DNA from: an uncultured Victivallaceae bacterium
Lineage (GTDB): Bacteria > Verrucomicrobiota > Lentisphaeria > Victivallales > Victivallaceae
DNA length: 53,798 nt
Assembly: GCA_944389925.1 (NCBI GenBank)
Contig: CALXOD010000069.1
Coordinates: 1 to 53,798 of the forward strand
Direction of reading: 5' to 3'
The notes below the pieces were generated by a model, which saw nothing but the letters and a program-made list of their open reading frames with translations, searched no databases and was not told the origin of the DNA. Positions 38,271 to 53,798 of the stretch are shown here, piece by piece (the stretch's first letter is position 1; every line of letters starts with the position of its first letter). A program made the position numbers and the translations under genes.

Positions 38271-38288
38271 ATAAAAACTGCTCTGGAT

Positions 38289-38366
38289 GGTGGTTGTAGC
38301 TCAGTTGGTTAGAGCGCCTGGTTGTGGCCCAGGAGGTCGCCGGTTCGAGTCCGGTCTACCACCCCA
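38289..38366 (+). tRNA. tRNA-His (GTG anticodon)
   Basis: The cloverleaf folds fully: the extra G(-1) at 38289 opposite C73 is the histidine identity mark, the acceptor arm runs GTGGTTG with CTACCAC (one T-T mismatch), the D-arm is GCTC/GAGC, the anticodon arm CCTGG/CCAGG around TTGTGGC with anticodon GTG, and the T-arm GCCGG/CCGGT around TTCGAGT. CCA is encoded. A T-tract follows immediately. Confidence 0.96.
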
Positions 38367-38509
38367 TTTTTTTTGATTCCTGCAAATTGAAGACGTATCC
38401 GGGAGCTTCCCCGTTTTCGAACCGGGCGGCCTCAACGTTCCGTCGATCTCCCGCCGGAACATTTGTTTCAACGGGAGAGGGACGGGAATCCGCTTCCGCG
38501 GCGGGAAAT

Positions 38510-39082
38510 TCATTTCGACGTCTGCTGCATCAGGAGCTGGGTAATAATGTTGATGACCTCCTGTGCCTGATCCGAACCGATGCCTACTCCTTCGATCACA
38601 CTTCGCTTGAAGCAGATCGCCGCCGGCAGACCGCTGTGCGAAACCACGGCAATGAGCAGACTCTTATTCAGGAAATAGAAAAGAATACAGGCCAGTCCAA
38701 TCATCCAGGCGCAAAAGACGAAAATTCCCAGTTCCCCCCCATGAACCATCATGGCTGGCAGCATGAAAAGGCCGATCAGAAAGAAAAACAGCGCGAAGGC
38801 GAAAAACAGAATCGGTTTGGTGTAGCCCGTGGAGGTGACGCTGATCGACCGCAGCGGCAGAATGGTTTGAATCTGTCCACTTAACGAACCGCGTTTGAAT
38901 TCGATCCGATCTGCGTAAACTTCAAAAGTTGTCGTAACATCAATTCCAAGCATTGTCAGAAACCATGAAATAAGTCCGGAACTCCGGGCGACAATATGAA
39001 CGTATACCGGACCGTTGTAATTGAGGGCGAATTCCTTCAAAACCAACGCCCGATTTCCGATTGACATGGCGATTGAGTGCAT
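38510..39082 (-). CDS. Integral membrane protein, unknown function
   Basis: I do not recognise this 190-residue protein. Two or three hydrophobic helices are visible at about 92-112 (ILFFAFALFFFLIGLFML) and 120-142 (IFVFCAWMIGLACILFYFL), between a soluble N-terminal half and a short C-terminal tail. The N-terminal half (FEVYADRIEFKRGSLSG, ILPLRSISVTSTGYTKP) resembles a PH-like domain as in membrane bPH proteins; this is a guess. GAGGAGG precedes the ATG. Confidence 0.78.
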   Translation of the reverse strand: MHSIAMSIGNRALVLKEFALNYNGPVYVHIVARSSGLISWFLTMLGIDVTTTFEVYADRIEFKRGSLSGQIQTILPLRSISVTSTGYTKPILFFAFALFFFLIGLFMLPAMMVHGGELGIFVFCAWMIGLACILFYFLNKSLLIAVVSHSGLPAAICFKRSVIEGVGIGSDQAQEVINIITQLLMQQTSK

Positions 39083-39117
39083 TTGCTTTCCTCCTCGTGG
39101 ATGGTTGACGGAACTGA

Positions 39118-39137
39118 ATATTATAATAGTATAATAT
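39118..39137. promoter_or_regulatory. AT-rich inverted repeat in a divergent intergenic region
   Basis: An ATATTATA-ATAG-TATAATAT inverted repeat (8-bp arms) sits between the divergent membrane-protein and GH78-like genes. It contains TATAAT on both strands, so it may combine back-to-back -10 boxes or an operator. Confidence 0.35.
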
Positions 39138-39300
39138 CCCGGAAAATCAAATTGCTGCCGCCTGTTTTTTCGCAGAAGGTGCGGAAAATAAATTAATTTT
39201 TCGGGAAATTTTTATTTGAGACTGGCAATTCCTGCTTGAAGAGGATATCTTGAAAACCAGCATTCGGCATGATGGTGTAACAAAGGAGCTGCAAGTCGCC

Positions 39301-41346
39301 ATGAAAAAAGAAGTTCCGGACGTTTTTAAAGGGAAGTGGATCACCAGTGACGAGTTCTGCAGTCTTGTCCCGCAGAATGTGTTTCACCGCCAGCTCGACG
39401 ATTCCGCACTGCCGGAAGTTGATCCTGCACTCCAGAACCGGCACATCCTTTTCCGGCGGACATTCACACTGGACGATTCCACCGCTCCCGCCGTAATTCA
39501 CATCACTGCCGATGATTATTACAAACTTTATGTGAACGGCGTTTTCGTCACGCAGGGGCCGGCGGCGGGATATTCGTTTCACTACTTTTACAACCGGATC
39601 GACATCTCCCGATTCCTCCGGGCCGGCCGGAACACCATCGCGGTGCATACCTTTTATCAGGGATTGATCAATCGCGTCTGGGTCAGCGGCGACCGGCAGC
39701 ACGGACTGCTGCTCGATCTGATCGTCGGAGGGGATACGATTTTAAGTTCGGACGAGAATTTCCGCTGCCGGATTCACTCCGGATTCTCCGCCGCCGGAAC
39801 GGTCGGTTATCAGACTCAGTTCATGGAGCGTTATGACGCCGCCGCGCCGGAGGTCGGATTCGAACAACCCGGATTTGATGATTCAAATTGGGAATTCGCG
39901 AAAATCCGCCGTCACGCAGATTATCAGCTTTTCCGGCAGCCGTCGAAACAGCTGGAATTTGAATCGATTGCTCCGGCGAACGTGGAGAGACGCGGCACGA
40001 ATGCGCTTCTGATTGATTTCGGTGGAATCTTCGTCGGCGCTCTGACGTTCCGGGCCTCCGGTGGATGCGGAGATGAAATCGAGATGCGTTTCGCGCAGGA
40101 ACTCAATGACGACGGCTCGGCGCGGTATGAGTTGCGGGCCAATTGCCGCTACGTCGAATATTTCAAATTGTCCGGTCGCGGGTATGATACGCTGAATCAA
40201 TTTGATTACAAGAGTTTCCGTTATGTGGAAATTTTGTTTCCCTCCGGGTGTGAACCGGATCCGGCATCTTTCCGGTTGACGGCGCGGCATTATCCATTCA
40301 CGTTGCGGGCCGCCTGCCGTTTCGACGACGGAAAATCGCGCGCGATCTGGAAATTGTGCGTCGATTCGCTGCACTACGGCGTGCAGGAGGTGATCCAGGA
40401 CTGCATGGATCGGGAGAAGGGATATTATCTCGGCGACGGTTGTTACAGTCTGCTGGCGCATTGTTTGTTGACACGTGATTACACGCTCATGGAGAAGTTC
40501 TTCGACGATTTTCTCCGCACGTCGTTCATCAACCGGGGATTGATGACCTGCGCGGCGTGCTCCTTCATGCAGGAGATCGCCGAATATCCGTTGATCATGT
40601 TCCAGTTGCTGCTGGAATACTGCGCGTTGACCGGCAACGTGGAATTCGTGCGTGAGCGTTACGCCGCCTTTGCCGACATCCTTGATTTTTATCGCGAAGA
40701 ATATGCCGACGGTGACGGGCTTCTCAACCATCTTGACAAATGGTGCGTGGTCGAGTGGCCGGCGAATATGCGCGACAATTACGACGTCGATCTTACCGAG
40801 GGACGGCGGTGTGACACCCGGCACAACGTGATCAACGCCTATTACATCGGCGCGATCAAATCCCTGAACCGGATCGCCGAACGAATCGGATTCGAACCTT
40901 ATCAGGATCCGGCGCCGCTGGAGGAGGCGTTTGTGAGAGTGTTTTACGATCCGGAAAAAGAGTTGTTTCGCGACAGCGACGAAACAACCCATATCAGTTT
41001 GCCCGGAAACGTGTTCGCCGCGTTTTTCGAATTGTTCCCCTCCCGGGCTGGCATCGAGAATACCATCGCGATGATTCGGGAGAAGCGGTTGTCGCAGAGT
41101 CTTTTTTTCGAAACGTTTCCGTTGCTCGCGTTTCTGACCCGCGAAGGTGAAACGCAACTGGTGCACGAACTTCTGATCGACGAAAACGCCTGGCTGAAGA
41201 TGAGCGACGAGGGGGCGACGCGCACCTTCGAAGGGTGGAGCAAAGATTTGAAATGGAACACTTCGCTCTTTCATCTGACGTTGACGCTCGGTGCGTTGTT
41301 CCTTACGGAATGGGATGTCGGCGGGATTCTGAGGTTTTCCAGATAA
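39301..41346 (+). CDS. GH78-like alpha-L-rhamnosidase-family protein
   Basis: This 681-residue protein has N-terminal jelly-roll domains (HITADDYYKLYVNGVFVTQGPAAGYSFHYF, a GH78 D-domain-like strand set) and an (alpha/alpha)6 barrel. GH78 DxPxRDExxGWxGD appears as DCMDREKGYYLGD, keeping the putative catalytic acid Glu at about residue 372. No signal peptide is visible, so it seems cytoplasmic. The ATG at 39301 (AAAGGAG, 12-base spacing) is preferred; a TTG at 39250 is the alternative. Rhamnose is the family substrate; other sugars are possible. Confidence 0.82.
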   Translation: MKKEVPDVFKGKWITSDEFCSLVPQNVFHRQLDDSALPEVDPALQNRHILFRRTFTLDDSTAPAVIHITADDYYKLYVNGVFVTQGPAAGYSFHYFYNRIDISRFLRAGRNTIAVHTFYQGLINRVWVSGDRQHGLLLDLIVGGDTILSSDENFRCRIHSGFSAAGTVGYQTQFMERYDAAAPEVGFEQPGFDDSNWEFAKIRRHADYQLFRQPSKQLEFESIAPANVERRGTNALLIDFGGIFVGALTFRASGGCGDEIEMRFAQELNDDGSARYELRANCRYVEYFKLSGRGYDTLNQFDYKSFRYVEILFPSGCEPDPASFRLTARHYPFTLRAACRFDDGKSRAIWKLCVDSLHYGVQEVIQDCMDREKGYYLGDGCYSLLAHCLLTRDYTLMEKFFDDFLRTSFINRGLMTCAACSFMQEIAEYPLIMFQLLLEYCALTGNVEFVRERYAAFADILDFYREEYADGDGLLNHLDKWCVVEWPANMRDNYDVDLTEGRRCDTRHNVINAYYIGAIKSLNRIAERIGFEPYQDPAPLEEAFVRVFYDPEKELFRDSDETTHISLPGNVFAAFFELFPSRAGIENTIAMIREKRLSQSLFFETFPLLAFLTREGETQLVHELLIDENAWLKMSDEGATRTFEGWSKDLKWNTSLFHLTLTLGALFLTEWDVGGILRFSR

Positions 41347-41404
41347 AACGAATTGATTTCAAGTGTGTTGCATTTTGTCATGTAATCAATCGAAAGGACG
41401 TGAA

Positions 41405-42067
41405 ATGGCAAACGAACTCGATGAAATGACCGGTCCGGTCAACGCCGCCGGACGGGATGTCAATGTGATTGAAAAACAGTTGCCCGTCACGGTGGGGGCG
41501 GGGTCATTGCTGTTTGAAATTCTGCTCTGGTGTCTCGGCATTCTGCCCGGGGTGATTTTCCTTTTCATGAAGATCAACGCGGCCAATTATTTCCGGCAGT
41601 TGCAGCAGAAAATTCAAGCCGACGCTTCGCAGATCGACAATTATCTGGAGCAGCGCGTCCAGATCCTGCAGAATCTCGCCCCGCTGGTGGCGAAGGCGAT
41701 CGATCTGGATAAAGACGTCATGAAAGCCGTCGCCGCACTCCGGGGCGGACATCTCCTGGATTCCGAGCGCAATGAGCTCTCCAGTGAACTTGATCGTTCC
41801 TTCGGACGGTTGTTCCCGCAGATCGAAGCGTATCCGGAGTTGAAGGCCCATCAGGCGATTGCCGAGGCGATGCGCCAGAACAGTTACCTGCAGCGCGAGA
41901 TCACCGCGGCGAGAACCCTCTACAACGATACGGTCAATCTCTGGAACCGTTCGCTTTATGAGTGGCCGACCCGGATGATCGTCGCCGCGCGGAATCATTA
42001 CACGACACGCATTCCGTTCACCGCCTCCGCCGAGACGAAGGCGCGCGCACGTGAGGTGTTCTTTTAA
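41405..42067 (+). CDS. LemA-family membrane protein
   Basis: This 220-residue protein has one N-terminal transmembrane segment (about 33-52, FEILLWCLGILPGVIFLFM) and a cytosolic or periplasmic helical coil (NYFRQLQQKIQADASQIDNYLEQRVQIL) of the LemA type, ending at AREVFF. LemA proteins are small membrane coiled-coil proteins of poorly known role. The stop overlaps the next gene start by one base (TAATG), so the pair is coupled. A GAAAGGA site precedes it; 58 bases separate it from the GH78-like gene. Confidence 0.88.
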   Translation: MANELDEMTGPVNAAGRDVNVIEKQLPVTVGAGSLLFEILLWCLGILPGVIFLFMKINAANYFRQLQQKIQADASQIDNYLEQRVQILQNLAPLVAKAIDLDKDVMKAVAALRGGHLLDSERNELSSELDRSFGRLFPQIEAYPELKAHQAIAEAMRQNSYLQREITAARTLYNDTVNLWNRSLYEWPTRMIVAARNHYTTRIPFTASAETKARAREVFF

Positions 42068-43803
42068 TGAATTCCGACACCCGGGATCCGGTGCAGCGCT
42101 ACCGGAAGGAATATAGACAGAAATTTTTTGAACTGGCGGTGAATTTTCTCGATCGTGCCGTCGCGTCCGCCGGAGTCGATCTGACGGCCAATGCGGTGTT
42201 GTCCGGAAAAATCGATCACCTTCTGGCGAAGCGCAATGCACTCTCCAGGAAGCGGACGCTCTGGATTTTTCTGTTGCTTCTCCCCGTGGCCGGAATCGTG
42301 ATCTGGGGGGCGTTGTTATGGTATTGGTTGAGTGACCGGCGGGCGGTTTCGATGGAACACTGGGGCGGGTTCGCTGGCTTCTGCCTGATCGGGTTGCTGT
42401 TCATATTGTTGAAATGCGTTCCCTCCATCCGCCGGCTCGGCGGTGTGGTTGAACAATTGAATGCCGACATCTCCCGGAAAATATCCGAAGCGTGGGATCA
42501 ACTGCGCCCGTTTTACCGGTATCTGAAATGGAACACCGTGACCGGACTCGTGGAAAAGACGATTCCACAATTGAAGTTCGATGATTTTCTTCCGGAGTCG
42601 CGTCTGGCGGATTTTTTCGGGACGTTTCAGTTTGATCCCGGAGAATTTTCGCTCAAATCGATCCTTTACACTCACAGCGGGACATTTTACGGTTATCCTT
42701 TTCTTTTTCTTGACGTCAAAAGTTTTTCCTGGGTCGAGAAGAGTTATTACGGCTATAAGACGATTCATTGGACCTCCCGCGAAAGGGATCGCAACGGCAA
42801 GATGCGCACGGTCTTTCATTCGCAGACATTGACCGCCAGTGTCACGCGGCCGGCGCCGGAGTTTCGCGAGGAAAAATTTCTGCTGTTCGGTCACGATGCC
42901 GCGCCCGGGCTGGTTTTTTCCCGGGAACCGTCGCCGCTGTCCGGGGGCGGGCATTCTCTTTTCAGGAGCATTCGGAAAAGGTTCAAGTTGGCATCGTTGC
43001 ACCGTTTCGAACGGGATTTGACAGATGCGAGCAATTTTACGATGATGAGCAACCGCGAGTTCGAAGTGCTGTTCAACTCCACGGATCGGAATGACGAGGT
43101 CGGATACCGGCTGTTGTTCACGCCGCTGGCGCAGCAGCAGATGGTGCAGTTGCTCAACGATACGAAATTCGGTTACGGGGATGATTTCCATTATCGGAAG
43201 GACAGAACGGTCACCTGCATCATTCCCCGGCATCTGACGCGGCTTGCTTTCTCCACGGAACCGGTGATGTTGCAGGAATATAATTGGGCGAGAATCAGGA
43301 AAACATTGTTGGAGCAATATACGGAATTTTTCCGATCGATTTATTTTTCACTGGCACCGCTGATGACGATTCCATTGTATAATGAGCCACGGGTCACGCC
43401 GTCGGCCTTTTCCTTCGGGGAGCGGGGCGACCGTTTAATATCGCCGTGGGAGATGGAGAGCATCGCAAATTATCAGGGGGAGGGGCTCTACAAACATCCG
43501 GAAAGTGTTACCGAAAATCTATTGAAGGTTTCCGAAGTTGAACACCTTGATGAGAATCGAACTTCGGCGCGAATCACCGCGATCGGTTTCAAAGGCATCG
43601 CCCATACAGAGCATGTTACCGTCCGCGGCGGTGACGGGCGATTCCATTCCGTCGCGGTCGAGTGGCTGGAATATATCGAAGTGAGACGCACCTTGCGAAT
43701 GGACGCTCGCGTGGCCCGGGAAGGCGATCCGGAGAGCGCTTCCGGAGCGGACAGCAATGAATTTTTCCGGCGTTCGATCATTTCCGGTCTCCCGTACAGA
43801 TAA
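42067..43803 (+). CDS. Large membrane protein coupled to LemA (possibly DUF3137-like)
   Basis: This 578-residue protein has two adjacent transmembrane helices near the N-terminus (about 65-85 LWIFLLLLPVAGIVIWGALLW and 100-118) and a long C-terminal soluble region with a strand-rich block (ILYTHSGTFYGYPFLFLDVKSFSWVEKSYYGYKTI) resembling DUF3137, a partner often next to LemA. That identification is tentative. It begins inside the LemA stop codon (TAATG), so the two are translationally coupled and probably act as a complex. Confidence 0.7.
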   Translation: MNSDTRDPVQRYRKEYRQKFFELAVNFLDRAVASAGVDLTANAVLSGKIDHLLAKRNALSRKRTLWIFLLLLPVAGIVIWGALLWYWLSDRRAVSMEHWGGFAGFCLIGLLFILLKCVPSIRRLGGVVEQLNADISRKISEAWDQLRPFYRYLKWNTVTGLVEKTIPQLKFDDFLPESRLADFFGTFQFDPGEFSLKSILYTHSGTFYGYPFLFLDVKSFSWVEKSYYGYKTIHWTSRERDRNGKMRTVFHSQTLTASVTRPAPEFREEKFLLFGHDAAPGLVFSREPSPLSGGGHSLFRSIRKRFKLASLHRFERDLTDASNFTMMSNREFEVLFNSTDRNDEVGYRLLFTPLAQQQMVQLLNDTKFGYGDDFHYRKDRTVTCIIPRHLTRLAFSTEPVMLQEYNWARIRKTLLEQYTEFFRSIYFSLAPLMTIPLYNEPRVTPSAFSFGERGDRLISPWEMESIANYQGEGLYKHPESVTENLLKVSEVEHLDENRTSARITAIGFKGIAHTEHVTVRGGDGRFHSVAVEWLEYIEVRRTLRMDARVAREGDPESASGADSNEFFRRSIISGLPYR

Positions 43804-43816
43804 AAGCCTCTGGACA

Positions 43817-43880
43817 GGGAGGACGTGGGAGGAATGCAGGGGAGGGGAGGCGAAAGCGAAAGCGAAAGAAAGGGAAAGAG
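43817..43880 (+). repeat. Purine-rich tract with G-quadruplex-like runs and GCGAAA triplet repeat
   Basis: Just after the DUF3137-like gene the plus strand is nearly all purine. G-runs at 43817-43819, 43827-43829, 43839-43842 and 43844-43847 (loops of 7, 9 and 1) could form a quadruplex, and GCGAAA occurs three times in tandem at 43850-43867. Confidence 0.5.
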
Positions 43881-43882
43881 GG

Positions 43883-44025
43883 TTATTCGCGTGTGTGGCG
43901 AATTAATATTTTTATCAATGCCGGATTATGGTAAAAAAACTTTCAGTGAATGGAGTGATTATCTATTGACAACGCCGTAAAGGAATGATATATTCTTCAT
44001 GATGCCGTTTTATGGCATCGGTTCT
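43883..44025. repeat. Copy A of a diverged ~145-bp repeat (contains the ncRNA promoter)
   Basis: This segment aligns without large gaps to 48498-48640. Both share the exact 20-base core beginning AATGCCGGATT (43917-43936 and 48532-48551), then scattered identity through AGGAATGA and the TTATG element. Copy A has an intact consensus promoter. Confidence 0.7.
43966..43994 (+). promoter_or_regulatory. Consensus sigma70 promoter of the structured RNA
   Basis: TTGACA, exactly 17 bases, TATATT. Start of transcription is expected near 44001, right at the first hairpin of the RNA. It is the strongest promoter in the window. Confidence 0.8.
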
Positions 44026-44218
44026 TTTACAAAGAGTATATTTCAGCAAATGTGTCTATAAACCCGCCAAGTTGAAAGTTTCATTTGCTTCTATCCCAGG
44101 TGAAATATACCCGGTGAGATTGTGTCTTCACATCTTGCCGGGCGCTTCCACATGATAGAAGCAGGTTCTTGGCGGGACCTTTAGACACAGTGATTGGAAG
44201 CGTTCGGCTTTTTTTTTT
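44001..44218 (+). ncRNA. Candidate structured non-coding RNA (class unknown; 6S-like shape)
   Basis: Predicted transcript of about 218 bases. A 5' hairpin (GATGCC 44001-44006 with GGCATC 44014-44019) leads to a nested rod: 8-bp stem TGTGTCTA/TAGACACA (44051-44058 with 44182-44189), 9-bp CCCGCCAAG/CTTGGCGGG (44063-44071 with 44168-44176), an asymmetric internal loop (15/5 bases), 9-bp GCTTCTATC/GATAGAAGC (44087-44095 with 44154-44162), 5-bp CCCGG/CCGGG (44110-44114 with 44138-44142), and an apical TGTG-TCTT-CACA hairpin. A short AAGC/GCTT hairpin and ten T end it at 44218. The remaining 44219-44489 shows no gene. All the stems are perfect, so it is very unlikely to be chance. The bulged rod recalls 6S RNA but I cannot match its conserved bases. 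The transcript could also be a leader of the small membrane gene at 44490. Confidence 0.65.
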
Positions 44219-44489
44219 GCTCCTTTTTTTGATTTTTCCCGTCGCTGTCCTGCACTTCCAAACCCGGCTTGCCCGCATTCCGTTCTGAGCTGAGCCGTTT
44301 TGCGTTTTATGCTCCGAAAGGTGAATAACACCCTCGCAAAACGAGACGTGACAAACATGTTCAACCAGAAAGGAGAGTGAGCCGGAGAAAAATCTGGAAG
44401 AGAGGCTTCCCGTCCGCATCCGGGAGAATGAAATCGATGTGCATTGTTTAACGTAACAACAGTAAAACTCAAAAAAAGGATCTGTCATC

Positions 44490-44696
44490 ATGAAAGACAT
44501 CAACATTGCCGAGATCGCGTTTTCAGCTCTCAGCCTCATTTGCGTATTGATCATCTGCTTCGGATTTTTGACTCCGCTGCTCACGGAAGGAATTCCGTTG
44601 GTCGAATGTTCCGCGAAGGGAGCGATCTTCAATGTGGTCGGCTCGCTTGCAGTCACCTTTGCAATTTTTGCGGGGTTTTTCCGGAAACAATATTGA
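44490..44696 (+). CDS. Small two-helix membrane protein, unknown
   Basis: This 68-residue protein has two hydrophobic stretches (about 10-30 IAFSALSLICVLIICFGFLTPLL and 44-64 GAIFNVVGSLAVTFAIFAGFF) and ends in RKQY. A ribosome site (AAAGGATC) precedes the ATG and the frame is free of obvious shadows, so it may be real. It lies 272 bases after the structured RNA. I do not recognise a family. Confidence 0.55.
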   Translation: MKDINIAEIAFSALSLICVLIICFGFLTPLLTEGIPLVECSAKGAIFNVVGSLAVTFAIFAGFFRKQY

Positions 44697-44893
44697 TCGT
44701 CCGTAATATCTGCAAATATTGCCGGTCAATATTGTACGGTTCCAGTCAGGTGGCGGTTATCCCAGGGTAATATGTTAACTTTTATCAAGTTATAATCATT
44801 TATCCAGGATTGCGCCACCGAATTTTGCGCGCGGAAGGAATTTTGATTCGAATCCTGAGATAATTTTGGATTTCAAAACAGGGGGAATTATCA

Positions 44894-46753
44894 ATGAAGA
44901 AAAAGACGTTGCTGGAAATTGTTTTTACAGCGACAGGTCTGTTGTTGATGACAGGGTGCGTCAGCACGATTGAATCAAAGGCTGACGGCGGTGATGCCAC
45001 CAGCATGAAAAAAATGGCAAGTTTATACAACGGGGAAAGGGTTTTTGTTTACGATCCGGCTAATGAACTGCCGATTCTCGGTCTGTTTACCGAAGCTGTT
45101 ATCGGCAAACCGGCGAAAGATACAAGCCGGAGTTTTGCCTGGATGAAAAAGGCGGCGGAAACGGGAGATCTTGCCGCAATGGTTTCAGTCGGGCAATATT
45201 ACGGCGAGGGTTTTGGAACGGAGACGTCGTACAGTGACTCGGCCGCCTGGTTCAGCAAGGCGTTGAAAGCAGCCTCTGAAAAGAAGGAGGCAGAGCAGCA
45301 GATTTCTTATAACGAGCTCTGCAAAAAAATGGTATCATGGTTCAATGAGCATCTCTCCAGTAAAAATGTCATCGCATATTACGATGTACTTCTGCAAATT
45401 TCCAACTATCTCGATCCCACGGCAATCTGCAGACTGATCGCCTGGAGTGATCTTAACTTTGCAGAAAAGGTCACCCGGATGGATGCGTTTTCAGAAGATT
45501 TCAAACGTTCCGCCGAATTTGCTTCAGTTGTGAACGAGGAAATCAAGCAATTTATGGTTGCTTTGTATGATAAATCAAGGTATCAGAAACTTTTTGACTA
45601 TCACAGCGGCCTCCCCGTTAATGTAAACTTCTGTTGCGATTATGACATCGCGGAGCAGATCATAAAAGAAAAGAAACTGCCGGATCGATTTGCGATGGCT
45701 TCGCTGCTTAAGAAGGAATCCGTTCCGCTCCAGGTAACGGATCGCGGAACATTTTTCGGTGCACGCACAGGTGATTTATATTTCATGGCCGACTTTCCGG
45801 ATGAAGTTCTGATTGATTTGTATGAATACACCCGTCCACCAGACGCTGATGACGTATTCAACAGCATGTTCGGCGGTCTGCTTGGCGGCGGTAAGGTGAT
45901 CACTCCGATTGTCGTGTACTCCAATAATTACAAGCCGGAAGAATTTCTTTATCCGGAGTTGTATTTATTTGGAGTCCGCAAAAGGGTCGTCGGAATTAAA
46001 GTTGAAGATATTATTGAGAAACTGAAATCCGATTATGAGAATTTGACGGTGAAGAATCTTTCCGAAGAAAAAGTTACGAAAGTTATCATCGGAACCGCAT
46101 ATCGGGTTACTTACAAGCCGGTTGGCTTCCGCCTCGAAAACGACGGCATATTCATGACGGTCAAGAGTGAAAAGGAGACCGGTCTTCAGGAGCCGAAACT
46201 GGAGAAAATCCAGCCCGGAGATCCGGATTATCTCTTCGCCCTCGTAAATGCGAAAGTACATGCCGGTTTCAGTTATTCTCCACTTGAAGGTTATCCGCAG
46301 AAGGAGAAAGACAAAATTCACCAGGAAGAAGACGAGGCTTTTGAGGAATTCTTCAATCGCGATCTTAAGGTTGCCGATATGGAAAAACAGCTCGCGCAAT
46401 ATGGCATTGTCGCATCTCTGGATTATACTTCTTCCGATACAAAGCCGCAACTGTGGCACAAGGTGATGCAGAACAAGAAAAATTATCGGTTGGAATCTTC
46501 AACCGGTGAGGGGGCGGATAATCTCATTGACATGGCCGTGACCTCTGTATTATCGAATTTCCTGCAGATGCAGGCTCAGTTAAACGGACAGCGGGCTGAT
46601 GAAAATGTCGTAATCATCGAATGTTTCGATAAGGCGCTTTATGCCAGGGCAATGGAACAATATCCGAAAATTCAGGCCGCACTGGCAAAAAAAGCGGAGA
46701 GGAAGAAACAGGATGATTATGAGCAGAAGAAAAGAGAGCAACTGAATTTCTAA
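44894..46753 (+). CDS. Large outer-membrane or periplasmic lipoprotein with Sel1-like N-terminal repeats
   Basis: This 619-residue protein has a lipobox (LLLMTGC, lipidated Cys22). Residues 30-110 have Sel1/TPR-like repeats (GDATSMKKMASLYNGERVF, DTSRSFAWMKKAAETGDLAAMVSVGQYYGEGFG, SAAWFSKALKAA), which are protein-interaction helices. The remaining 500 residues are not recognised and end in a Lys/Glu-rich helix. The gene may be a distinct function from the neighbouring zinc-ribbon gene. A GGGGGAA site precedes the ATG, and a -10-like TATAAT lies at 44791-44796. Confidence 0.78.
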   Translation: MKKKTLLEIVFTATGLLLMTGCVSTIESKADGGDATSMKKMASLYNGERVFVYDPANELPILGLFTEAVIGKPAKDTSRSFAWMKKAAETGDLAAMVSVGQYYGEGFGTETSYSDSAAWFSKALKAASEKKEAEQQISYNELCKKMVSWFNEHLSSKNVIAYYDVLLQISNYLDPTAICRLIAWSDLNFAEKVTRMDAFSEDFKRSAEFASVVNEEIKQFMVALYDKSRYQKLFDYHSGLPVNVNFCCDYDIAEQIIKEKKLPDRFAMASLLKKESVPLQVTDRGTFFGARTGDLYFMADFPDEVLIDLYEYTRPPDADDVFNSMFGGLLGGGKVITPIVVYSNNYKPEEFLYPELYLFGVRKRVVGIKVEDIIEKLKSDYENLTVKNLSEEKVTKVIIGTAYRVTYKPVGFRLENDGIFMTVKSEKETGLQEPKLEKIQPGDPDYLFALVNAKVHAGFSYSPLEGYPQKEKDKIHQEEDEAFEEFFNRDLKVADMEKQLAQYGIVASLDYTSSDTKPQLWHKVMQNKKNYRLESSTGEGADNLIDMAVTSVLSNFLQMQAQLNGQRADENVVIIECFDKALYARAMEQYPKIQAALAKKAERKKQDDYEQKKREQLNF

Positions 46754-46763
46754 GGAATCCATT

Positions 46764-46801
46764 CAACCAGGAGAGATGATTGCTGAAATCTCTCCTGGTT
46801 G
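46764..46801 (+). terminator. Strong hairpin between the lipoprotein and zinc-ribbon genes
   Basis: A perfect 14-bp stem (CAACCAGGAGAGAT / ATCTCTCCTGGTTG, 10-base loop) starts 11 bases after the stop. No T-tract follows, so it may act as a processing or transcript-stability element rather than a full terminator. The next gene starts 34 bases on. Confidence 0.5.
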
Positions 46802-46835
46802 TCGATTCAGAACGGAACCATGGGAGAAAAACATT

Positions 46836-47795
46836 ATGGAAGAAGAAAAGAAAGCGGAAAATAATGAAATCCAGCCGGATACTTCCGGTACCGGGCTGAA
46901 AAAATGTTCGGACTGCGGGAAAGATGTCTCGAGTTATGCAACCAGCTGCCCGAATTGCGGCGCGCCTCAGAATCCGACCATCCGGAAATGTCCGGACTGC
47001 GGAAAGGACGTCTCCATCCATGCAACCGGCTGCCCGAATTGCGGCAGACCGCTTGAACCCGCGGCCCGAACCGATCTCAAACCGGTCAACATGGGATTTT
47101 CACTCCAGGCGCTGCCGTTGATCATTCTGCTGTGTTCCTGGTTGAGCACAAAGGAATTCGAGTGCTGGTCGGCCACGAGTTTCTTCGTCTTCATTTTCGC
47201 GGTGTTCATCGGGATCGAAGCGTACCGCAACCGGAAAATCAAGGATATCGGCAATCCATTCGCCTGGATACTCGGCGCGTTGTTCTTCTACCCGATCGTA
47301 TACCCGTATTACATGTTTAAGAGAAAGGAGATTCAGCTTGATTCCATTTTCAAGTTGTTCTCCATTCCGCTGGCGATTCTGACATTGTATTTCTGGATCG
47401 TGAGTTTCAACACTCCCGGAGCCGCCATCGGAACCGGAAGTCTCACGATTGCCGCGCCCTCCGGTTCGTCCTCCTACTCTTCCGGCAGCACGTTCTCCAG
47501 TCCGGAAATCAAGTCCGAACCGGCTTTCTCCCGCGAGGAATATATCTGCCGGGAAGCAAAGAACGGTATGACCGAGTTTCTTTCCGATATGGAAGGCTCC
47601 AGGGCGCCGAGCTGCACTTCGGTTACGATTGTGAAGAAAGTATCGTCAACCAAATGGATCGGGAAGGCCGTCACTGATAACGGAAAATCCGGGGAAGTCA
47701 GCATCGAGATCATGGGGTTCGGTGACGATGATCCGGAACCGGTTGTGATGGTCGTTCCGGTGGACATCACGGATTTTTACAATCCGTTCGAATGA
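46836..47795 (+). CDS. Double zinc-ribbon membrane protein
   Basis: This 319-residue protein has two zinc ribbons near the N-terminus (KCSDCGKDVSSYATSCPNCG and KCPDCGKDVSIHATGCPNCG, each CxxC...CxxC), then four hydrophobic helices at about 88-185 (LQALPLIILLCSWL, FVFIFAVFIGIEAY, ILGALFFYPIVYPYY, IPLAILTLYFWIVSF), and a soluble C-terminal part from about 230. The two ribbons are near repeats of each other, suggesting internal duplication. Function unknown; such ribbon-membrane proteins often act in envelope stress or as accessory factors. GGGAGAAA precedes the ATG. Confidence 0.85.
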   Translation: MEEEKKAENNEIQPDTSGTGLKKCSDCGKDVSSYATSCPNCGAPQNPTIRKCPDCGKDVSIHATGCPNCGRPLEPAARTDLKPVNMGFSLQALPLIILLCSWLSTKEFECWSATSFFVFIFAVFIGIEAYRNRKIKDIGNPFAWILGALFFYPIVYPYYMFKRKEIQLDSIFKLFSIPLAILTLYFWIVSFNTPGAAIGTGSLTIAAPSGSSSYSSGSTFSSPEIKSEPAFSREEYICREAKNGMTEFLSDMEGSRAPSCTSVTIVKKVSSTKWIGKAVTDNGKSGEVSIEIMGFGDDDPEPVVMVVPVDITDFYNPFE

Positions 47796-47824
47796 CGCAA
47801 AATCGTCGTTCAGCACAGGAAATG

Positions 47825-47857
47825 AAGGAGGGGCGTGTAAAACGAACCTCCTTTTTT
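47825..47857 (+). terminator. Rho-independent terminator of the zinc-ribbon gene
   Basis: Stem AAGGAGG / CCTCCTT (15-base loop) followed by TTTTTT, 30 bases after the stop codon. Confidence 0.8.
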
Positions 47858-48042
47858 CATGTCGTATTCCTGGAGAAATTCCCCCCGTACCGGAGCTTCC
47901 GGAGAATACGTGCCGGACACCGAGCCGGCGTTCCGGAAACGTTGAAGCAGATCGGCGCGTTTTCCGGATGAAAACGGAAGACGGGAGAATTTTTTGTAAA
48001 TTCTCGACTGTTAACAGAAAATAAATAGTATCGACCGACATC

Positions 48043-48071
48043 TTGACAAAATAATTATATTGTATCATAAT
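48043..48071 (+). promoter_or_regulatory. Promoter of the ROK pseudogene
   Basis: TTGACA, 17 bases, CATAAT, 45 bases before the ATG. The rest of the 47858-48116 gap holds no gene that I can see. Confidence 0.6.
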
Positions 48072-48116
48072 CAATACAGAAAATACAGTTACAGTCGAGG
48101 TTTCTCCACTGTGCGG

Positions 48117-48532
48117 ATGATCAAGGAAAAATCCGAAAGAATCAGTCCGGGTTCTCACGATGTTCTCCGGCTGCTCTATGAAAACGATTCGATGCGCCAG
48201 AGCGACATCGCCCGAATTCTCGGTATCACGAAATCCGCCTGCAACCAGCATTGCCGGCGATTGGTCAATGCCCGGTTCAGCAGCGCGGAAAACGGCACCG
48301 CCACCCGGGGCGGACGCCCGGGGCCCAGTCCTGGCACATCAATCAGGATGAGAACTGCTTTCTCGGATTGTCGTTTTCCTCGCACGCCAAAGAACTTTCC
48401 GGAAGCTCTGCATCGATTGTTCGGGACGTCGGTCTCCGCACAAATAGAAACCTTCACCTGGAAATCCACGGGGGAATCCGCGGAAGAGCAGGAGATGTAT
48501 TCTTACTGCATGGCGAATCGACATTCCTGTAA
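48117..48532 (+). pseudogene. Frameshifted, truncated ROK-family transcriptional regulator
   Basis: The first frame encodes a winged helix (SPGSHDVLRLLYENDSMRQSDIARILGITKSACNQHCRRLVNA) as in ROK/XylR/NagC regulators, up to GGRPG. A shift near 48318-48330 then moves coding sense to the next frame (AQSWHINQDENCFLGLSFSS), which continues the ROK domain 'GRP-x-x-hxhN-x-D-x-x-x-h-G' block, and ends at a stop at 48530-48532. A ROK protein should be about 380 residues; only about 140 are left, so the gene is dead. Sequence beyond is the diverged repeat copy B. Confidence 0.7.
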
Positions 48533-48640
48533 ATGCCGGATTATGGTAAAATTTTTCGATGAATCGAGTAATTTCCTGTCGACACAATCCCGTCCAGGAA
48601 TGACATCTCTTCAAAGGCGTCGTCTTATGTAATATGCTCA
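48498..48640. repeat. Copy B of the diverged ~145-bp repeat
   Basis: Homologous to 43883-44025, including the exact core 48532-48551. Its promoter is decayed (TCGACA, 17 bases, CATCTC) and no structured RNA follows, so it looks like a degenerate duplicate. Confidence 0.65.
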
Positions 48641-49081
48641 TCTCTGCCAGGAGCCGTCCAAAAATTTTTCCGAGGGCGTTCTTCCTCGTTTTTCGTAGAA
48701 GTACAATGTCGCGGACGAAATTCCGGCAAGTCATGCAAGTTGGCTCTGTCTGAAATGTCCGTCCCATCCGACTCTGATCCGTCAAATTGTTTTATTCCGC
48801 CTGATTGCCGCTCAGGATAACTCTCGCTGTCAAACAATCGTTACGGGCAGCCGGAATGAACAGACAAAAAAATACCGGAGGGCGAAGTGCTCATCCGGCG
48901 ATTGTGACAAAACGTCTTTAAAAAATAAATGCTGAAACCGTTTTCGCATCGGCCTGTGAAAAAGCCGCAGTTGGCGAATTCTTCCGGAACCCGCATCGCG
49001 GGCCCCGGTAACATCTTCTTGAAGGCGCCACCGGCTTAGCCGGTGGTTTTGATTTTTGCCTGCGGGAACGACGCGGAAAAA
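48641..49081. other. Gene-poor region with paired GC hairpins (IS200/IS605-like end)
   Basis: No supported gene. Two successive hairpins are visible: CCCGC-ATC-GCGGG (48990-49002) and CCACCGGC-TTA-GCCGGTGG followed by TTTTGATTTTT (49028-49056). The second, on the plus strand, is terminator-shaped, but no plus-strand gene ends there. Such hairpins are reminiscent of the 3' ends of IS200/IS605-type elements, but no transposase remnant is recognisable. Confidence 0.4.
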
Positions 49082-51457
49082 TTACTTCCCACCGTTTTCC
49101 TCCGCAGCCTTTTCCTCCGCAGCTTTTTCCGCTGCTTCGGCCTCTTTTTTCCGCTGCATGCTTTCAAGTGCGTCGAACCGCGCCTTGTCGGCCACGGAGA
49201 CGTGACCCTCGACCCGGCCGTCGTCAAGCGGGTTGGCGATACGCGCTTCAAGGTCGCGGAAGAGCGCGCGCATGTCGATCAATCCGCCGATCAGGAACCA
49301 GACGGTCGAAACGATTCCGACCACCAGCGCCACGACGATGATGGTAATGAAGAAGTAGACCGCCCATGCGTCGGTGCTGAACGGGAAGAAAAGATTCCAG
49401 ACCAGCACACCGCAGAACATGATGCCGAAACTGTAGATCAGCGAATAGATGAACACGCTCCATGCGATGACTTTGTCGCCGCGGGTATATTCGGAGGTGA
49501 TCCCGATGAGCTGCGTGTAAACCCAGTTCCAGACGGAGATTTTTTGCTTGGGTGCCTCTTGCTCTTCCGGGTTGTCGCTGTAAATACCCCGGTGGAACAG
49601 ACGGTCAAGGTTGTAGGGTTCCTTGTAGGTGAGCCACGATCCGGCAATATACGCGATTACGCCGGCAACCATTGAAAAGAAAAAGATCTCCATCGAGTTG
49701 ATCGGGAATTTGATCGCATCCATCTTCCAGACGATGATCGGATCAAACGGAGCCGACACGGTCTCGAGGAACGCTCCCACCACTTCGACGTAACCGCAAT
49801 CCTCCAGCCACGGGTAGATCAGATCCGCCCAGTTGCGCTGGCAGAAGAGCCCGAGAATTGAAATGCCGGAACCGAAAAATAACGCGCACCACGCACCGAA
49901 CGTAGTTCCCCAGCGGGTGTACAATCCACCGACCATGATCGGCCCGGCCGCCCCCAGCCAGACGGCGCACATGATCGTGGTGAACATGTTGATATAGTCG
50001 AGCTGGGCGAAAAAGAGCGATACGATAAAGAAGAAAATTGTTACACCGAGCGAACAGAGTTTCAAATAAAGCAGGTGTTCCTCCATGGTCATCGGCGTCT
50101 TGCGGAACGGCAGAATCACGTCCTGAATGATCGTACTTGACGCATTGAAGATCCGGCTGTCGTCGGTCGAAAGCAGAAGCATGATCATCAGCAGCGTGAA
50201 GATGCCCATCAGGATCGGCGGAAAAAGCGACCGGAGCATGGTCGGCATCATCATCTGGAAATAGAGCGAACGAAACTCCTGGAATTTCGCATTGCCGTTT
50301 TCGGTTCTTGAATCCTGAATGCTCTTGAGCGTCGCATCAAGGAAAGGCATATCGGGATTGTGAGTGCGCGAATAAGGGGCGTCGACGCCGATCTGGTGCT
50401 GCGCCACCGGCAGTTTTGAGACGCTTTCATTGATCCTTTTCTGCACCAGAGTCTGATCGGCGAAGACCTCCTGGCTGATTTTATCGGTTAACGCAAGCCG
50501 GACATTATGGGCCGCGGGGGCGAAGCGGTTGTTGAGCATGAAGGTGATGACGAAAATTCCGACCAGCGTCATCATGGTTCCGGAAAAACCGTTACGCCAG
50601 GTGCCGAGGATGTTGGCCATTTTCTGCTCATGCGGAGTGCGGCCGGCATTGGTGGTGTCGTTGCCGATCCATGCGGCGCGGTTGAGGATGGTGCTGGTGA
50701 TCGTGACGACCAGTGCGAAGATGTTGAAATCACGCAGTTCCTCGATGTCCATCGGGTTGAGGAAGCTTTCTCCGGGCGCGCGGTCGAGCATGACCGGCGC
50801 GACGTCGCTGAACCAGGAGATGTTCGTAAGAATGAAGACCGTGAAGATCACGAAGATCGGATAACTGATGATTCCCTGGAAGCAGTCCGTCACCAGGAGC
50901 GAAATACGTCCCGCCGGCCAGACGATCGCCAGTGCGAGAATCAGCAGGATCGCCACCAGCACGCCGTAGGTCGGAATTTCGAACCCGAAAATCGGCAGTT
51001 TGTGCGGGATTCCGAGAAAGTAAATGAAGAACCGCACCGCCACGGCCGGTCCGATGGCGTTGGTGACCATCTCTGCGAGAGTGCGGATGATCGCCGCCAC
51101 AATACGGAAGGGACGGCTGTAACGCTGTTCGAAGAACTGGCCGGCGGAGAGGCAGCGCGCCTGGCGGAACCGGTACACGCAATAACCGCTCAACGCCATG
51201 AAAAGACCGAGCGGAACGGTCAGGTTGTTCCAGAAACTCATGGCCATGCCGCACTGATAATTCTGTTCGCAGAGAGCGACCAGCGTGATGACCGAAAGAC
51301 CGGCACTCATGTCTCCGACGCTGATGACGTAACGACCGGCGACGCGACCGGAAGCGAGATAATCGGCGATGTCCCTGACGTATCTTCGTGAGTAAAACGC
51401 CGCTCCGATGATGACGATCAGCGGAATCAACACGATCAGCCAGCCGGTCAGATTCAT
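49082..51457 (-). CDS. Sodium/solute symporter (SSS) family transporter
   Basis: This 791-residue transporter has about 13-15 membrane helices of the SSS (SglT/PutP) fold, starting LTGWLIVLIPLIVIIGAAFYS and containing a conserved loop ADYLASGRVAGRYVISVGDMSAGLSVITL (the unwound TM1 region near the Na site). A long soluble insert (about 300-390, rich in KISQEVF, HQIGVDAPYS) and a C-terminal Glu/Ala/Lys-rich tail of about 40 residues are unusual. It probably imports sugars with sodium. The ATG at 51457 follows a strong GGAAAGGAAG; the longer frame to 51646 adds residues unlike the family. Divergent from the GH3 gene. Confidence 0.9.
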   Translation of the reverse strand: MNLTGWLIVLIPLIVIIGAAFYSRRYVRDIADYLASGRVAGRYVISVGDMSAGLSVITLVALCEQNYQCGMAMSFWNNLTVPLGLFMALSGYCVYRFRQARCLSAGQFFEQRYSRPFRIVAAIIRTLAEMVTNAIGPAVAVRFFIYFLGIPHKLPIFGFEIPTYGVLVAILLILALAIVWPAGRISLLVTDCFQGIISYPIFVIFTVFILTNISWFSDVAPVMLDRAPGESFLNPMDIEELRDFNIFALVVTITSTILNRAAWIGNDTTNAGRTPHEQKMANILGTWRNGFSGTMMTLVGIFVITFMLNNRFAPAAHNVRLALTDKISQEVFADQTLVQKRINESVSKLPVAQHQIGVDAPYSRTHNPDMPFLDATLKSIQDSRTENGNAKFQEFRSLYFQMMMPTMLRSLFPPILMGIFTLLMIMLLLSTDDSRIFNASSTIIQDVILPFRKTPMTMEEHLLYLKLCSLGVTIFFFIVSLFFAQLDYINMFTTIMCAVWLGAAGPIMVGGLYTRWGTTFGAWCALFFGSGISILGLFCQRNWADLIYPWLEDCGYVEVVGAFLETVSAPFDPIIVWKMDAIKFPINSMEIFFFSMVAGVIAYIAGSWLTYKEPYNLDRLFHRGIYSDNPEEQEAPKQKISVWNWVYTQLIGITSEYTRGDKVIAWSVFIYSLIYSFGIMFCGVLVWNLFFPFSTDAWAVYFFITIIVVALVVGIVSTVWFLIGGLIDMRALFRDLEARIANPLDDGRVEGHVSVADKARFDALESMQRKKEAEAAEKAAEEKAAEENGGK

Positions 51458-51923
51458 TTTTCTTCCTTTCCTTCCCTTGTTTTTTATATTTTGACGCGAA
51501 TGCTGAATTTCACTTTCAGAATGAAGAACCGCCCCATCCCGCCGTTCTCCATTCGCCCTGGAATGAAGACATCTCGCCGGCTGTTCCGGGATAACTTGCC
51601 GCCCGGGAGAGATTTCATATCCTGCAAACTTTAAGCTTGTGATCAATTTAACATATTGATTTGCAAGCTGTTGAACTATTCTTTTTTTTAGTCGCGTGAA
51701 ACCATTCTTTTAAAGATACATGACATTTTGGCAATTTTCAAGAGTGCTCATCTTTTTTTTCCGTTATTTCGTGCCCGAATTTTTATTTCAGACGAAAAAA
51801 AAGCAAAATATCTTGCTTATGACTGAATCGCAGATCTGGACATTACCATGTTCGATGCTATCTTAACAGAACGATTTTATTTCATTAAAGAATCCTGAAA
51901 CAATTTTGGAACATTTGAAAATC
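51458..51923. promoter_or_regulatory. Divergent intergenic region between the symporter and GH3 genes
   Basis: In this 466-base AT-rich region no gene is seen. An inverted repeat ATCAAT-N7-ATTGAT at 51642-51660 is the clearest possible operator. The strand of the main promoters cannot be decided by eye. Confidence 0.4.
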
Positions 51924-53798
51924 ATGGAAAAACGCATCTCTGAAATCCTCGGTCAACTGTCGCTCGATGAAAAAATCCACCTTTGTTGTGGCTTTTCCGG
52001 CATGGAGGCCGGCAATCTGCCGCGTTTCGGCATCCGGACTCTCGCCATGGCCGACGGGCCGCAGGGAATTCGGCTGGAGGACGGGCGCACCTCCACGGCG
52101 CTGCCGTCGGGGATGAACCTGGCCGCTTCCTTCGATACGGAGAACGCGGAACAATACGGCGCTTTGATCGCGCGCGAATGTCTTGCCAACAATGTTCAGG
52201 TGAGTCTGGGACCGGGGTTCAATTTAATGCGCACCCCGATGAACGGGCGCAATTTCGAATACTACGGCGAAGATCCGGTTCTGGCGGGCGAAATCGCCGC
52301 CGGTTACGTGCGCGGCTGTCAGTCCGAAAAGGTCGCCGCCACGCCCAAGCATCTGGCGCTCAACAATCAGGAGATCTGCCGCTCCGTCGGAAGTTCGAAT
52401 TGCGACGAGGCGGTCATGCGGAATTTGTATCTGCGACCGTTTGAAATCGTCGTGCGGGAATCGTCGCCGTGGATGATGATGTCCAGTTACAATAAAATCA
52501 ACGGCACCTACGCGTCCGCGTGCCGTTTCACGCAGCAGACCGTGATGAAGGACGAAAACAATTTCGACGGCGTGATGGTTTCCGACTGGGGGGCCGTTCA
52601 CGACGTGGTCGGCTGCGCGCTCGGTGGACTCGACCTGGAAATGGGCAGCGATCTCTTCCGGAAGGAGTTGAAGGCGGCGGTCGAGAGCGGGAAAGTTCCG
52701 ATGGCGGCCCTCGATGAGATGGTGCGCCGCAATCTCCGGCTGCTTTGCCGTACGGGACGGATCGACGGCGTGCCGTTTGAACCGGGAGAGGCCGAATGCA
52801 ACAGCGCACGTCATCGGAAGTTCGCGCTCGACTGCGCAATCGAGGGGAGCGTGCTTCTGAAAAATTGCGGCGGCATTCTGCCTTTGAAACGCAAAACGTT
52901 GCGCCGGATTCTGGTTACGGGGCCGAATGCCGATTATCGCCAGAGCATCGGTTCGCTGGAACATTGCGGCGGTTCCGGCGCGGTGCATCCGGATTATGAA
53001 ATTACTCCGCTGGAGGGAATTCGCGAATTTCTCGGCGATTCGGTGGAGGTGGTGTTCGCGCCGGGAGCGCTGTTCGAAGACCGTGAACGGATTCCGGCGG
53101 AACTGCTGCGCACGCCGGAGGGGAAACCGGGGGTACGGCTGTCGTATTACGAATCGAAGGATTGCTCAGGCGAGCCCTTTGAGGTACGGGTATCGCCGTC
53201 GTTCGATCTGCACTGGGGCGAATTCGGCGCGGCGGGGCGCGACAATTCCGATCCGCTCAACCGGCGTTGTTTCAGCTGCCGGATGGAGTGTGTGGCGACA
53301 CCGGTGAAAGATGAGACGATCCGGCTCTCGTACCGGGCGGGACGGCTCTTCGGCCGGGTGAAGGTCGATGGAGTGGAACTGCTTTCGAACCGGGCGAGCA
53401 TCGTTTATCCGGTCAATGGCGGCGCCGTGATCGAAGTTTGCAAGGGCGTGCCGCTGAAACTGGAAGTGGAAATGGAGCGCTATTCCGAGGAGTTCTCCGA
53501 ATTCAGTCTGCTCTGGATCGGTTCTCCGGAAGAACGGCTCCGGGAGGCGGTCGAGCTCGCGCGTACGGTCGATGCGGTGCTCTTTTTCGGCGGGCGCAAC
53601 CATCGTTACGACCGGGAGGCGATCGGCTGGGGCGATGTGCCCAACGCCGACGTCGGCGCGTGGGATCTGCCCTCCGGTCAGAATGAGTTGATCTCGGCGC
53701 TCTGCGACGCGAATCCGCGGGTCGTCGCTTGTTTTGTGAACGGTTCTCCGTTCAACGTGATGCCGTGGATCGACAAACTTCCGGCGATGGTGGAGATG
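51924..53798 (+). CDS. Glycoside hydrolase family 3 enzyme, C-terminus cut by window edge
   Basis: The visible 625 residues include the GH3 N-terminal barrel (LSLDEKIHLCCG, MADGPQGIRLEDGRTS, LGPGFNLMRTPMNGRNFEYYGEDPVLAG, KHLALNNQE), the nucleophile motif GVMVSDWGAVHD with Asp221, the second domain (GSVLLKNCGGILPL) and an insertion at about 400-540 of PA14 type (FEVRVSPSFDLHWG, IRLSYRAGRLFGRVKVDG). It acts as a beta-glucosidase-type exo-enzyme; there is no signal peptide, so it is probably cytoplasmic, with the symporter importing its substrates. The frame is open at the edge. Confidence 0.95.
   Translation, partial: MEKRISEILGQLSLDEKIHLCCGFSGMEAGNLPRFGIRTLAMADGPQGIRLEDGRTSTALPSGMNLAASFDTENAEQYGALIARECLANNVQVSLGPGFNLMRTPMNGRNFEYYGEDPVLAGEIAAGYVRGCQSEKVAATPKHLALNNQEICRSVGSSNCDEAVMRNLYLRPFEIVVRESSPWMMMSSYNKINGTYASACRFTQQTVMKDENNFDGVMVSDWGAVHDVVGCALGGLDLEMGSDLFRKELKAAVESGKVPMAALDEMVRRNLRLLCRTGRIDGVPFEPGEAECNSARHRKFALDCAIEGSVLLKNCGGILPLKRKTLRRILVTGPNADYRQSIGSLEHCGGSGAVHPDYEITPLEGIREFLGDSVEVVFAPGALFEDRERIPAELLRTPEGKPGVRLSYYESKDCSGEPFEVRVSPSFDLHWGEFGAAGRDNSDPLNRRCFSCRMECVATPVKDETIRLSYRAGRLFGRVKVDGVELLSNRASIVYPVNGGAVIEVCKGVPLKLEVEMERYSEEFSEFSLLWIGSPEERLREAVELARTVDAVLFFGGRNHRYDREAIGWGDVPNADVGAWDLPSGQNELISALCDANPRVVACFVNGSPFNVMPWIDKLPAMVEM

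Follow-up and report, generated by a model that had tools for sequence, protein, structure and literature searches.

The window, by which we mean the whole stretch of 53,798 nucleotides that was analysed, contains a 686-base gap between a gene ending at 43803 and a gene starting at 44490. As described in the first-pass annotation, this gap holds no convincing ORF and carries a promoter, TTGACA (43966-43971) and TATATT (43989-43994) separated by 17 bases, followed seven bases 3' of the −10 element by the hairpin GATGCCGUUUUAUGGCAUC. The nested stems of a long rod, noticed in the same annotation, were likewise found, with outer stems at 44051-58/44182-89 (8 bp) and 44063-71/44168-76 (9 bp) and inner ones at 44087-95/44154-62 (9 bp) and 44110-14/44138-42 (5 bp) together with an innermost stem, as was a run of T residues at 44209-44218. 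The fold of this element had a minimum free energy of −83.9 compared to a mean of −52.2 for shuffled sequences (z = −7.7), and none of 200 shuffles equalled it. A second set of helices, H, T, PKa and HP0, which conflict with the rod and did not figure in the earlier list, was found in the same RNA. In the following, the rod is referred to as state A and the fold with helix T and local hairpins as state B. All features lie on the forward strand:

43966..43994, + strand: sigma-70-type promoter TTGACA-N17-TATATT, 11/12 match
44001..44019, + strand: 5' hairpin P0, located where the transcript should begin; position kept, and pairing kept despite sequence change, in relatives
44028..44212, + strand: RNA core as modelled (R1); 190 bits to the model, about 130 homologues
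44037..44050, + strand: UAUAUUUCAGCAAA, the segment that varies least; supplies the 5' strands of PKa and HP0, local 5' hairpin of state B
44037-45 with 44101-09, + strand: helix PKa
44046-50 with 44084-88, + strand: helix HP0
44051..44059 with 44181-44189, + strand: P2, rod, state A; z up to 27, 90.7% paired
44063..44071 with 44168-44176, + strand: P3, rod, state A; z up to 19.9, 98.4% paired
44087..44095 with 44154-44162, + strand: P4, rod, state A; z up to 25.5, 95.4% paired
44110..44142 (44110-14 with 44138-42), + strand: P5 hairpin; 88.3% paired, its 3' strand being the 5' end of helix T
44138..44149 with 44196..44207, + strand: putative terminator helix T, state B; outer 10 pairs 95.5% paired
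44164..44179 (44164-68 with 44175-79), + strand: H hairpin, overlapping P3; 98% paired
44209..44218, + strand: U-tract immediately 3' of helix T; at least 6 T in 8 nt at 116/133 loci
44490..44696, + strand: first downstream gene, 68-aa small membrane protein, likely target; no Pfam match
44894..46753, + strand: second downstream gene, 619-aa Sel1-type lipoprotein; weak Sel1 match
46776..47795, + strand: third downstream gene, 339-aa zinc-ribbon membrane protein; Zn_Ribbon_1 and DZR above cut-off

Similar stretches were detected by DNA search in 42 of 100 relatives, and a covariance model based on 39 sequences extended this to 60 of the 100 (1-8 matches per genome, most with E < 1e-18). In total, the family has about 130 copies, in genomes that are mostly MAGs. 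In a phylum-wide scan of 388 genomes, 58 carriers were found, all but one within a single order (Lentisphaerota: Victivallales). Named records that carry the RNA include Victivallis vadensis DSM 14823 (copy at NZ_QEKH01000025.1, 312-494, minus strand) and Victivallales of the rumen, colon, caecum and faeces. The promoter region is a recurrent feature: a −10-like hexamer was present 25-80 nt upstream at 100 of 132 homologous loci, compared to 48 of 510 control stretches, and the 5' segment of the homologues folded at −11.1 kcal/mol, compared to −6.4 kcal/mol after shuffling. In the window, the promoter and 5' hairpin region (43896-44014) recurs at 48511-48629 as a direct repeat of 72% identity, so that the RNA and its three genes lie between the two repeats; an apparent truncated gene for a helix-turn-helix regulator lies around 48118-48500, just 5' of the second repeat copy.

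Of the pattern hits in records beyond Lentisphaerota (Microseira, Paenibacillus and others), the model confirmed just one, locus L173. This strong copy (178.5 bits) lies on the 7.5-kb contig JAQVKF010000190.1 labelled Thermoguttaceae (Planctomycetota), which is probably mis-binned; no other confirmed copy came from a record assigned to a different phylum. An origin from a virus, phage or plasmid was rejected: neither of two pattern hits in IMG/VR was confirmed by the model, and phage and plasmid records gave no match to the RNA.

With Rfam 15 at gathering scores, tRNAs alone were recognised in the window and in 20 homologous loci, and the 6S, SRP, RNase P and other models that the annotation had named for comparison recognised nothing in the element. 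Sub-threshold matches (mir-3478, isrK, Ysr251 and others) were far under the gathering scores and are attributed to chance. Acido-Lenti-1 (RF01687) is a described RNA motif that occurs in Lentisphaerae (PMC2864571), yet no Rfam match to it was found in the element. We found no description of the RNA in the literature, of which coverage was partial, and two recent large surveys name neither Lentisphaerota nor Victivallis; absence there and from Rfam is in itself no proof of novelty. The RNA constitutes a large and exceptionally well-supported family that is missing from Rfam 15.

Of the three identities proposed in the first-pass annotation, a new RNA class and a leader of the downstream gene are both borne out, whereas a diverged 6S RNA is not. 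The element does resemble 6S RNA (RF00013; 6S-flavo, RF01685) in its length of ~185 nt, its long bulged rod and its own promoter. However, no hit to RF00013 or 6S-flavo was obtained in the region even at E ≤ 10, and RF00013 was detected in 0 of 21 relatives, the own genome among them, so that no recognisable 6S RNA was seen elsewhere either. Furthermore, the RNA occurs in 1-8 copies per genome rather than as one or two free-standing ones, is linked to a gene on the same strand, and has at its end a terminator helix whose formation competes with that of the rod. Here the rod shape by itself was misleading.

Covariation in relatives, suggested in the annotation as a check on the stems, was found overwhelmingly. 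In an APC-corrected, all-against-all comparison of column pairs in 102 aligned copies, the top covarying pairs were those of P2, P4 and P3, with z up to 27, and all four Watson-Crick pairs were used at many positions of P2 and P4. The rod set, counted together with PKa, had 91.8% of its cells paired, compared to 33-43% in slid controls, and 953 two-sided changes, compared to 282 in shuffled alignments, a null that leaves the relatedness among copies in place.

The helices of state B were conserved as well, with 90.9% pairing as opposed to 28-50% in slid controls and 151 two-sided changes as opposed to 60 after shuffling. Their covariation score was modestly above that of the shuffles (0.311 vs 0.242), which keep the relatedness. 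Two-sided changes were seen in 7 of the 10 outer pairs of helix T, and in hairpin H the pair 44166/44177 was UA in 62 copies and CG in 34 (z 9.9). Helix T comprises 12 bp, and its 3' end abuts the U-tract exactly; the frequency of at least 6 T in 8 nt following it, given above, compares to a background of 1.6%. From these sequence features, helix T and the U-tract are predicted to form an intrinsic terminator. A second terminator with an antiterminator 3' of the RNA (GCTGGATTTCGC motif) was found in a subset only and was therefore left outside the core.

Several bases are claimed by both helix sets: 44138-42 by T and P5, 44168, 44175 and 44176 by H and P3, and 44087-88 by HP0 and P4. In addition, PKa and T would form pseudoknots across a rod of 26 pairs with linkers of only ~5-6 nt, so that the two sets are most likely sterically exclusive; the alternative is one compact pseudoknotted fold that holds both. 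In the window, calculated energies were −71.8 kcal/mol for state A and −57.2 kcal/mol for state B, and state A was the lower in 94 of 102 copies. When minimum free energy folds of the growing transcript were followed, HP0 and PKa appeared first and were replaced by P4, P3 and P2 before the 3' strand of T had been made. T was present in almost no full-length molecule folded in this way, so that termination would need a helper or kinetics. Taken together, the energetics and the growing-transcript folds suggest read-through as the default and termination induced by an effector, although the energies alone leave the direction unsettled.

The first large downstream gene was on the same strand as the RNA at 92 of 104 loci (92:12), compared to 57 of 95 (57:38) for the upstream gene (Fisher p = 3.7e-6), and the median distance between RNA and gene was 164 nt; since genes were simple ORF picks, the 12 opposite-strand cases and some of the distances are approximate. 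At loci L276, L294, L295, L235 and L222, a Shine-Dalgarno sequence and start codon were found 31-68 nt past the end of the model, which leaves hardly any space for an additional promoter. In the window, gene 44490 begins ~280 nt past the U-tract, a spacing at which a promoter of its own is possible. Its product has a 67-aa homologue, 69% identical, encoded directly 3' of another RNA copy (G042:C38), and this, together with the family-wide strand bias, supports the leader function that the annotation had offered. The 68-aa membrane protein is likely the target of the window RNA.

The same data bear on a free-standing small RNA that acts in trans, as a regulator or a 6S-like polymerase binder, next to an incidental gene. 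Such an RNA would have the promoter of its own and the 3' terminator helix with U-tract that are seen here, and the stable rod would fit as its thermodynamic end state. The 92:12 strand bias, the close start codons at several loci, the up to 8 diverged copies per genome and the mutually conflicting helices argue against it, and we regard it as improbable.

We consider the element, with a probability of roughly 70%, a cis-acting transcription-attenuation leader of the orphan riboswitch type that controls accessory genes. The order at the locus would be promoter, 5' hairpin, an RNA of about 185-190 nt with two folds, terminator and gene. In state A, the two halves of the RNA would pair with each other as the rod (P2, P3, P4) and P5 would occupy 44138-42; with the start of the terminator held by P5, RNA polymerase would go on to transcribe the gene. 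In state B, each half would fold locally, the 5' half into PKa/HP0 and the 3' half into hairpin H within helix T, and T with the U-tract would stop transcription. State A may be the default in the cell because the rod zips up while the 3' strand of T is yet to be transcribed, and a putative signal, a small molecule or a protein, would tip the balance between the two alternating states.

In common with transcription-terminating riboswitches, the RNA is the 5' leader of a same-strand gene and has a covarying structured domain, and it carries what appears from the alignment to be an expression platform with mutually exclusive, covarying antiterminator and terminator folds (P5/P2-P4 against T and U-tract). 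Unlike them, it matches no Rfam class, and its terminator helix borrows a strand from inside the conserved domain. The downstream genes also differ: the 102 proteins comprised 97 Pfam families, none in more than 5, and pointed to no common pathway, which is unusual for a metabolite riboswitch. Among them were AIDA-type adhesins, zinc-ribbon and Sel1 proteins and glycosyltransferases, and some matched defence proteins (JukA, HEC-06, a type IV restriction enzyme). Next to four copies (L035, L041, L045, L049), (AAGC)n tetranucleotide runs were observed soon 3' of the RNA, mostly 3' of a GCGAACGAAGTGAGCGC-like palindrome, and the contigs end there; these sites are possibly phase-variable or repeat-collapsed.

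The lack of a common pathway would suit a variant of the attenuator in which an RNA-binding protein, not a small molecule, sets the fold, and a protein might bind the invariant segment UAUUUCAGCAAA. A big and intricate fold, however, is found more typically in RNAs that sense small molecules, and we consider this variant rather unlikely. Regarding small molecules, c-di-GMP riboswitches (GEMM) likewise occur many times per genome, ahead of a variety of surface and accessory genes; the RNA shows no sequence or structure match to them. GGDEF proteins were encoded in 1 of 51 strong carriers (RNA match with E at most 1e-8) as opposed to 19 of 49 other genomes, and with GGDEF absent from nearly all carriers c-di-GMP is unlikely as the common signal. 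The distribution of c-di-AMP synthase is uninformative, since 97 of 100 genomes encode it whether or not they carry the RNA.

At 46 of 97 loci, compared to 21.7 expected, further terminator-like hairpins were found between the RNA and its gene, which would be needless for a single switch. They would be accounted for if the RNA acted in processive antitermination, as EAR (RF01735) and put RNAs do, with the rod riding RNA polymerase past terminators further on, ahead of long accessory genes or within them; glycosyltransferases and long adhesin genes are indeed among the targets, and EAR and put are likewise structured leaders ahead of accessory operons. Against this, the element matches neither, bears its own competing 3' terminator helix and precedes many genes without a later terminator (e.g. 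L249, L253, L263, L256). No extra NusG paralogue accompanies the RNA; put antitermination needs none. Overall, we judge processive antitermination quite improbable. A specialised NusG paralogue of the LoaP/RfaH type was rejected as a partner, the RNA-rich genomes G017, G043, G058, G090, G092 and G093 carrying one NusG each. At one locus (L265, G094:C1:184754), an RNA copy lies 5' of a gene for a NusG paralogue (G094:C1:185392).

RNA copies of 95-98.5% identity precede unrelated genes, and do so in different genera, so that the module spreads independently of its gene. The stretch shared by near-identical copies has edges at about −18/−80 and about +73. In one subfamily, homology extends from the promoter (TTGCATT, spacer, TATATTA) through the 5' hairpin and the RNA to ~73 nt beyond and ends just 5' of the variable gene. 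The pairs L260/L165 and L261/L252 have 2 kb of upstream sequence and the RNA in common but differ after it. A contig of genome G039 was 99.6% identical to the window up to 44018, continued with 120 nt of other sequence and resumed at 48858, without the RNA and its three genes, which another G039 contig has. Judging from these alignments, the promoter-leader is apparently a recurrent module that is exchanged, or given new genes, through recombination. The two G039 contigs, C101 (L299) and C34 (L032), matched window positions 38287-44018 and 43816-53798 with 99.6-99.8% identity, G039 is filed in another genus, and the version without the RNA module has a changed −35 and −10. Recent transfer, a mixture of strains or mis-binning of the contigs would each explain this sharing.

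The occurrence of near-identical copies in different genera and in unrelated contexts, and a window copy in a stretch missing from another G039 contig, would also be expected of a mobile palindromic DNA repeat of the MITE or BOX type, with a structure incidental to mobility. BOX elements of Streptococcus pneumoniae are repeated and structured, lie upstream of varied genes and spread between loci. The present RNA is far larger than these, strongly covarying and equipped with promoter and terminator. Compensatory changes in every rod stem and the conserved promoter, U-tract and gene orientation speak against a mobile repeat, and neither a transposase nor terminal inverted repeats or target duplications came to notice in an unsystematic look. 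The covariation pattern already largely refutes this reading, which we hold to be the least probable of all. Nor does the element behave as an integron attC site: the copies are single and dispersed, the gene lies 3' of the element, and the upstream strand bias is weak (57:38).

Returning to the attenuation leader, its broad target range points to a signalling role rather than to feedback in a single pathway. As a tentative and rather speculative extension, the copies may constitute one new riboswitch class for a global signal other than c-di-GMP, carried on a promoter-leader module that spreads within the order and brings any accessory gene it precedes (adhesins, defence, zinc-ribbon membrane proteins) under the same signal. 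The RNA is apparently a widespread means of controlling accessory genes, including some for defence and adhesion, in a poorly studied phylum of the gut and rumen. Victivallis vadensis DSM 14823, a cultured carrier, makes it testable, and the effector, once found, could expose a new signal in these bacteria.
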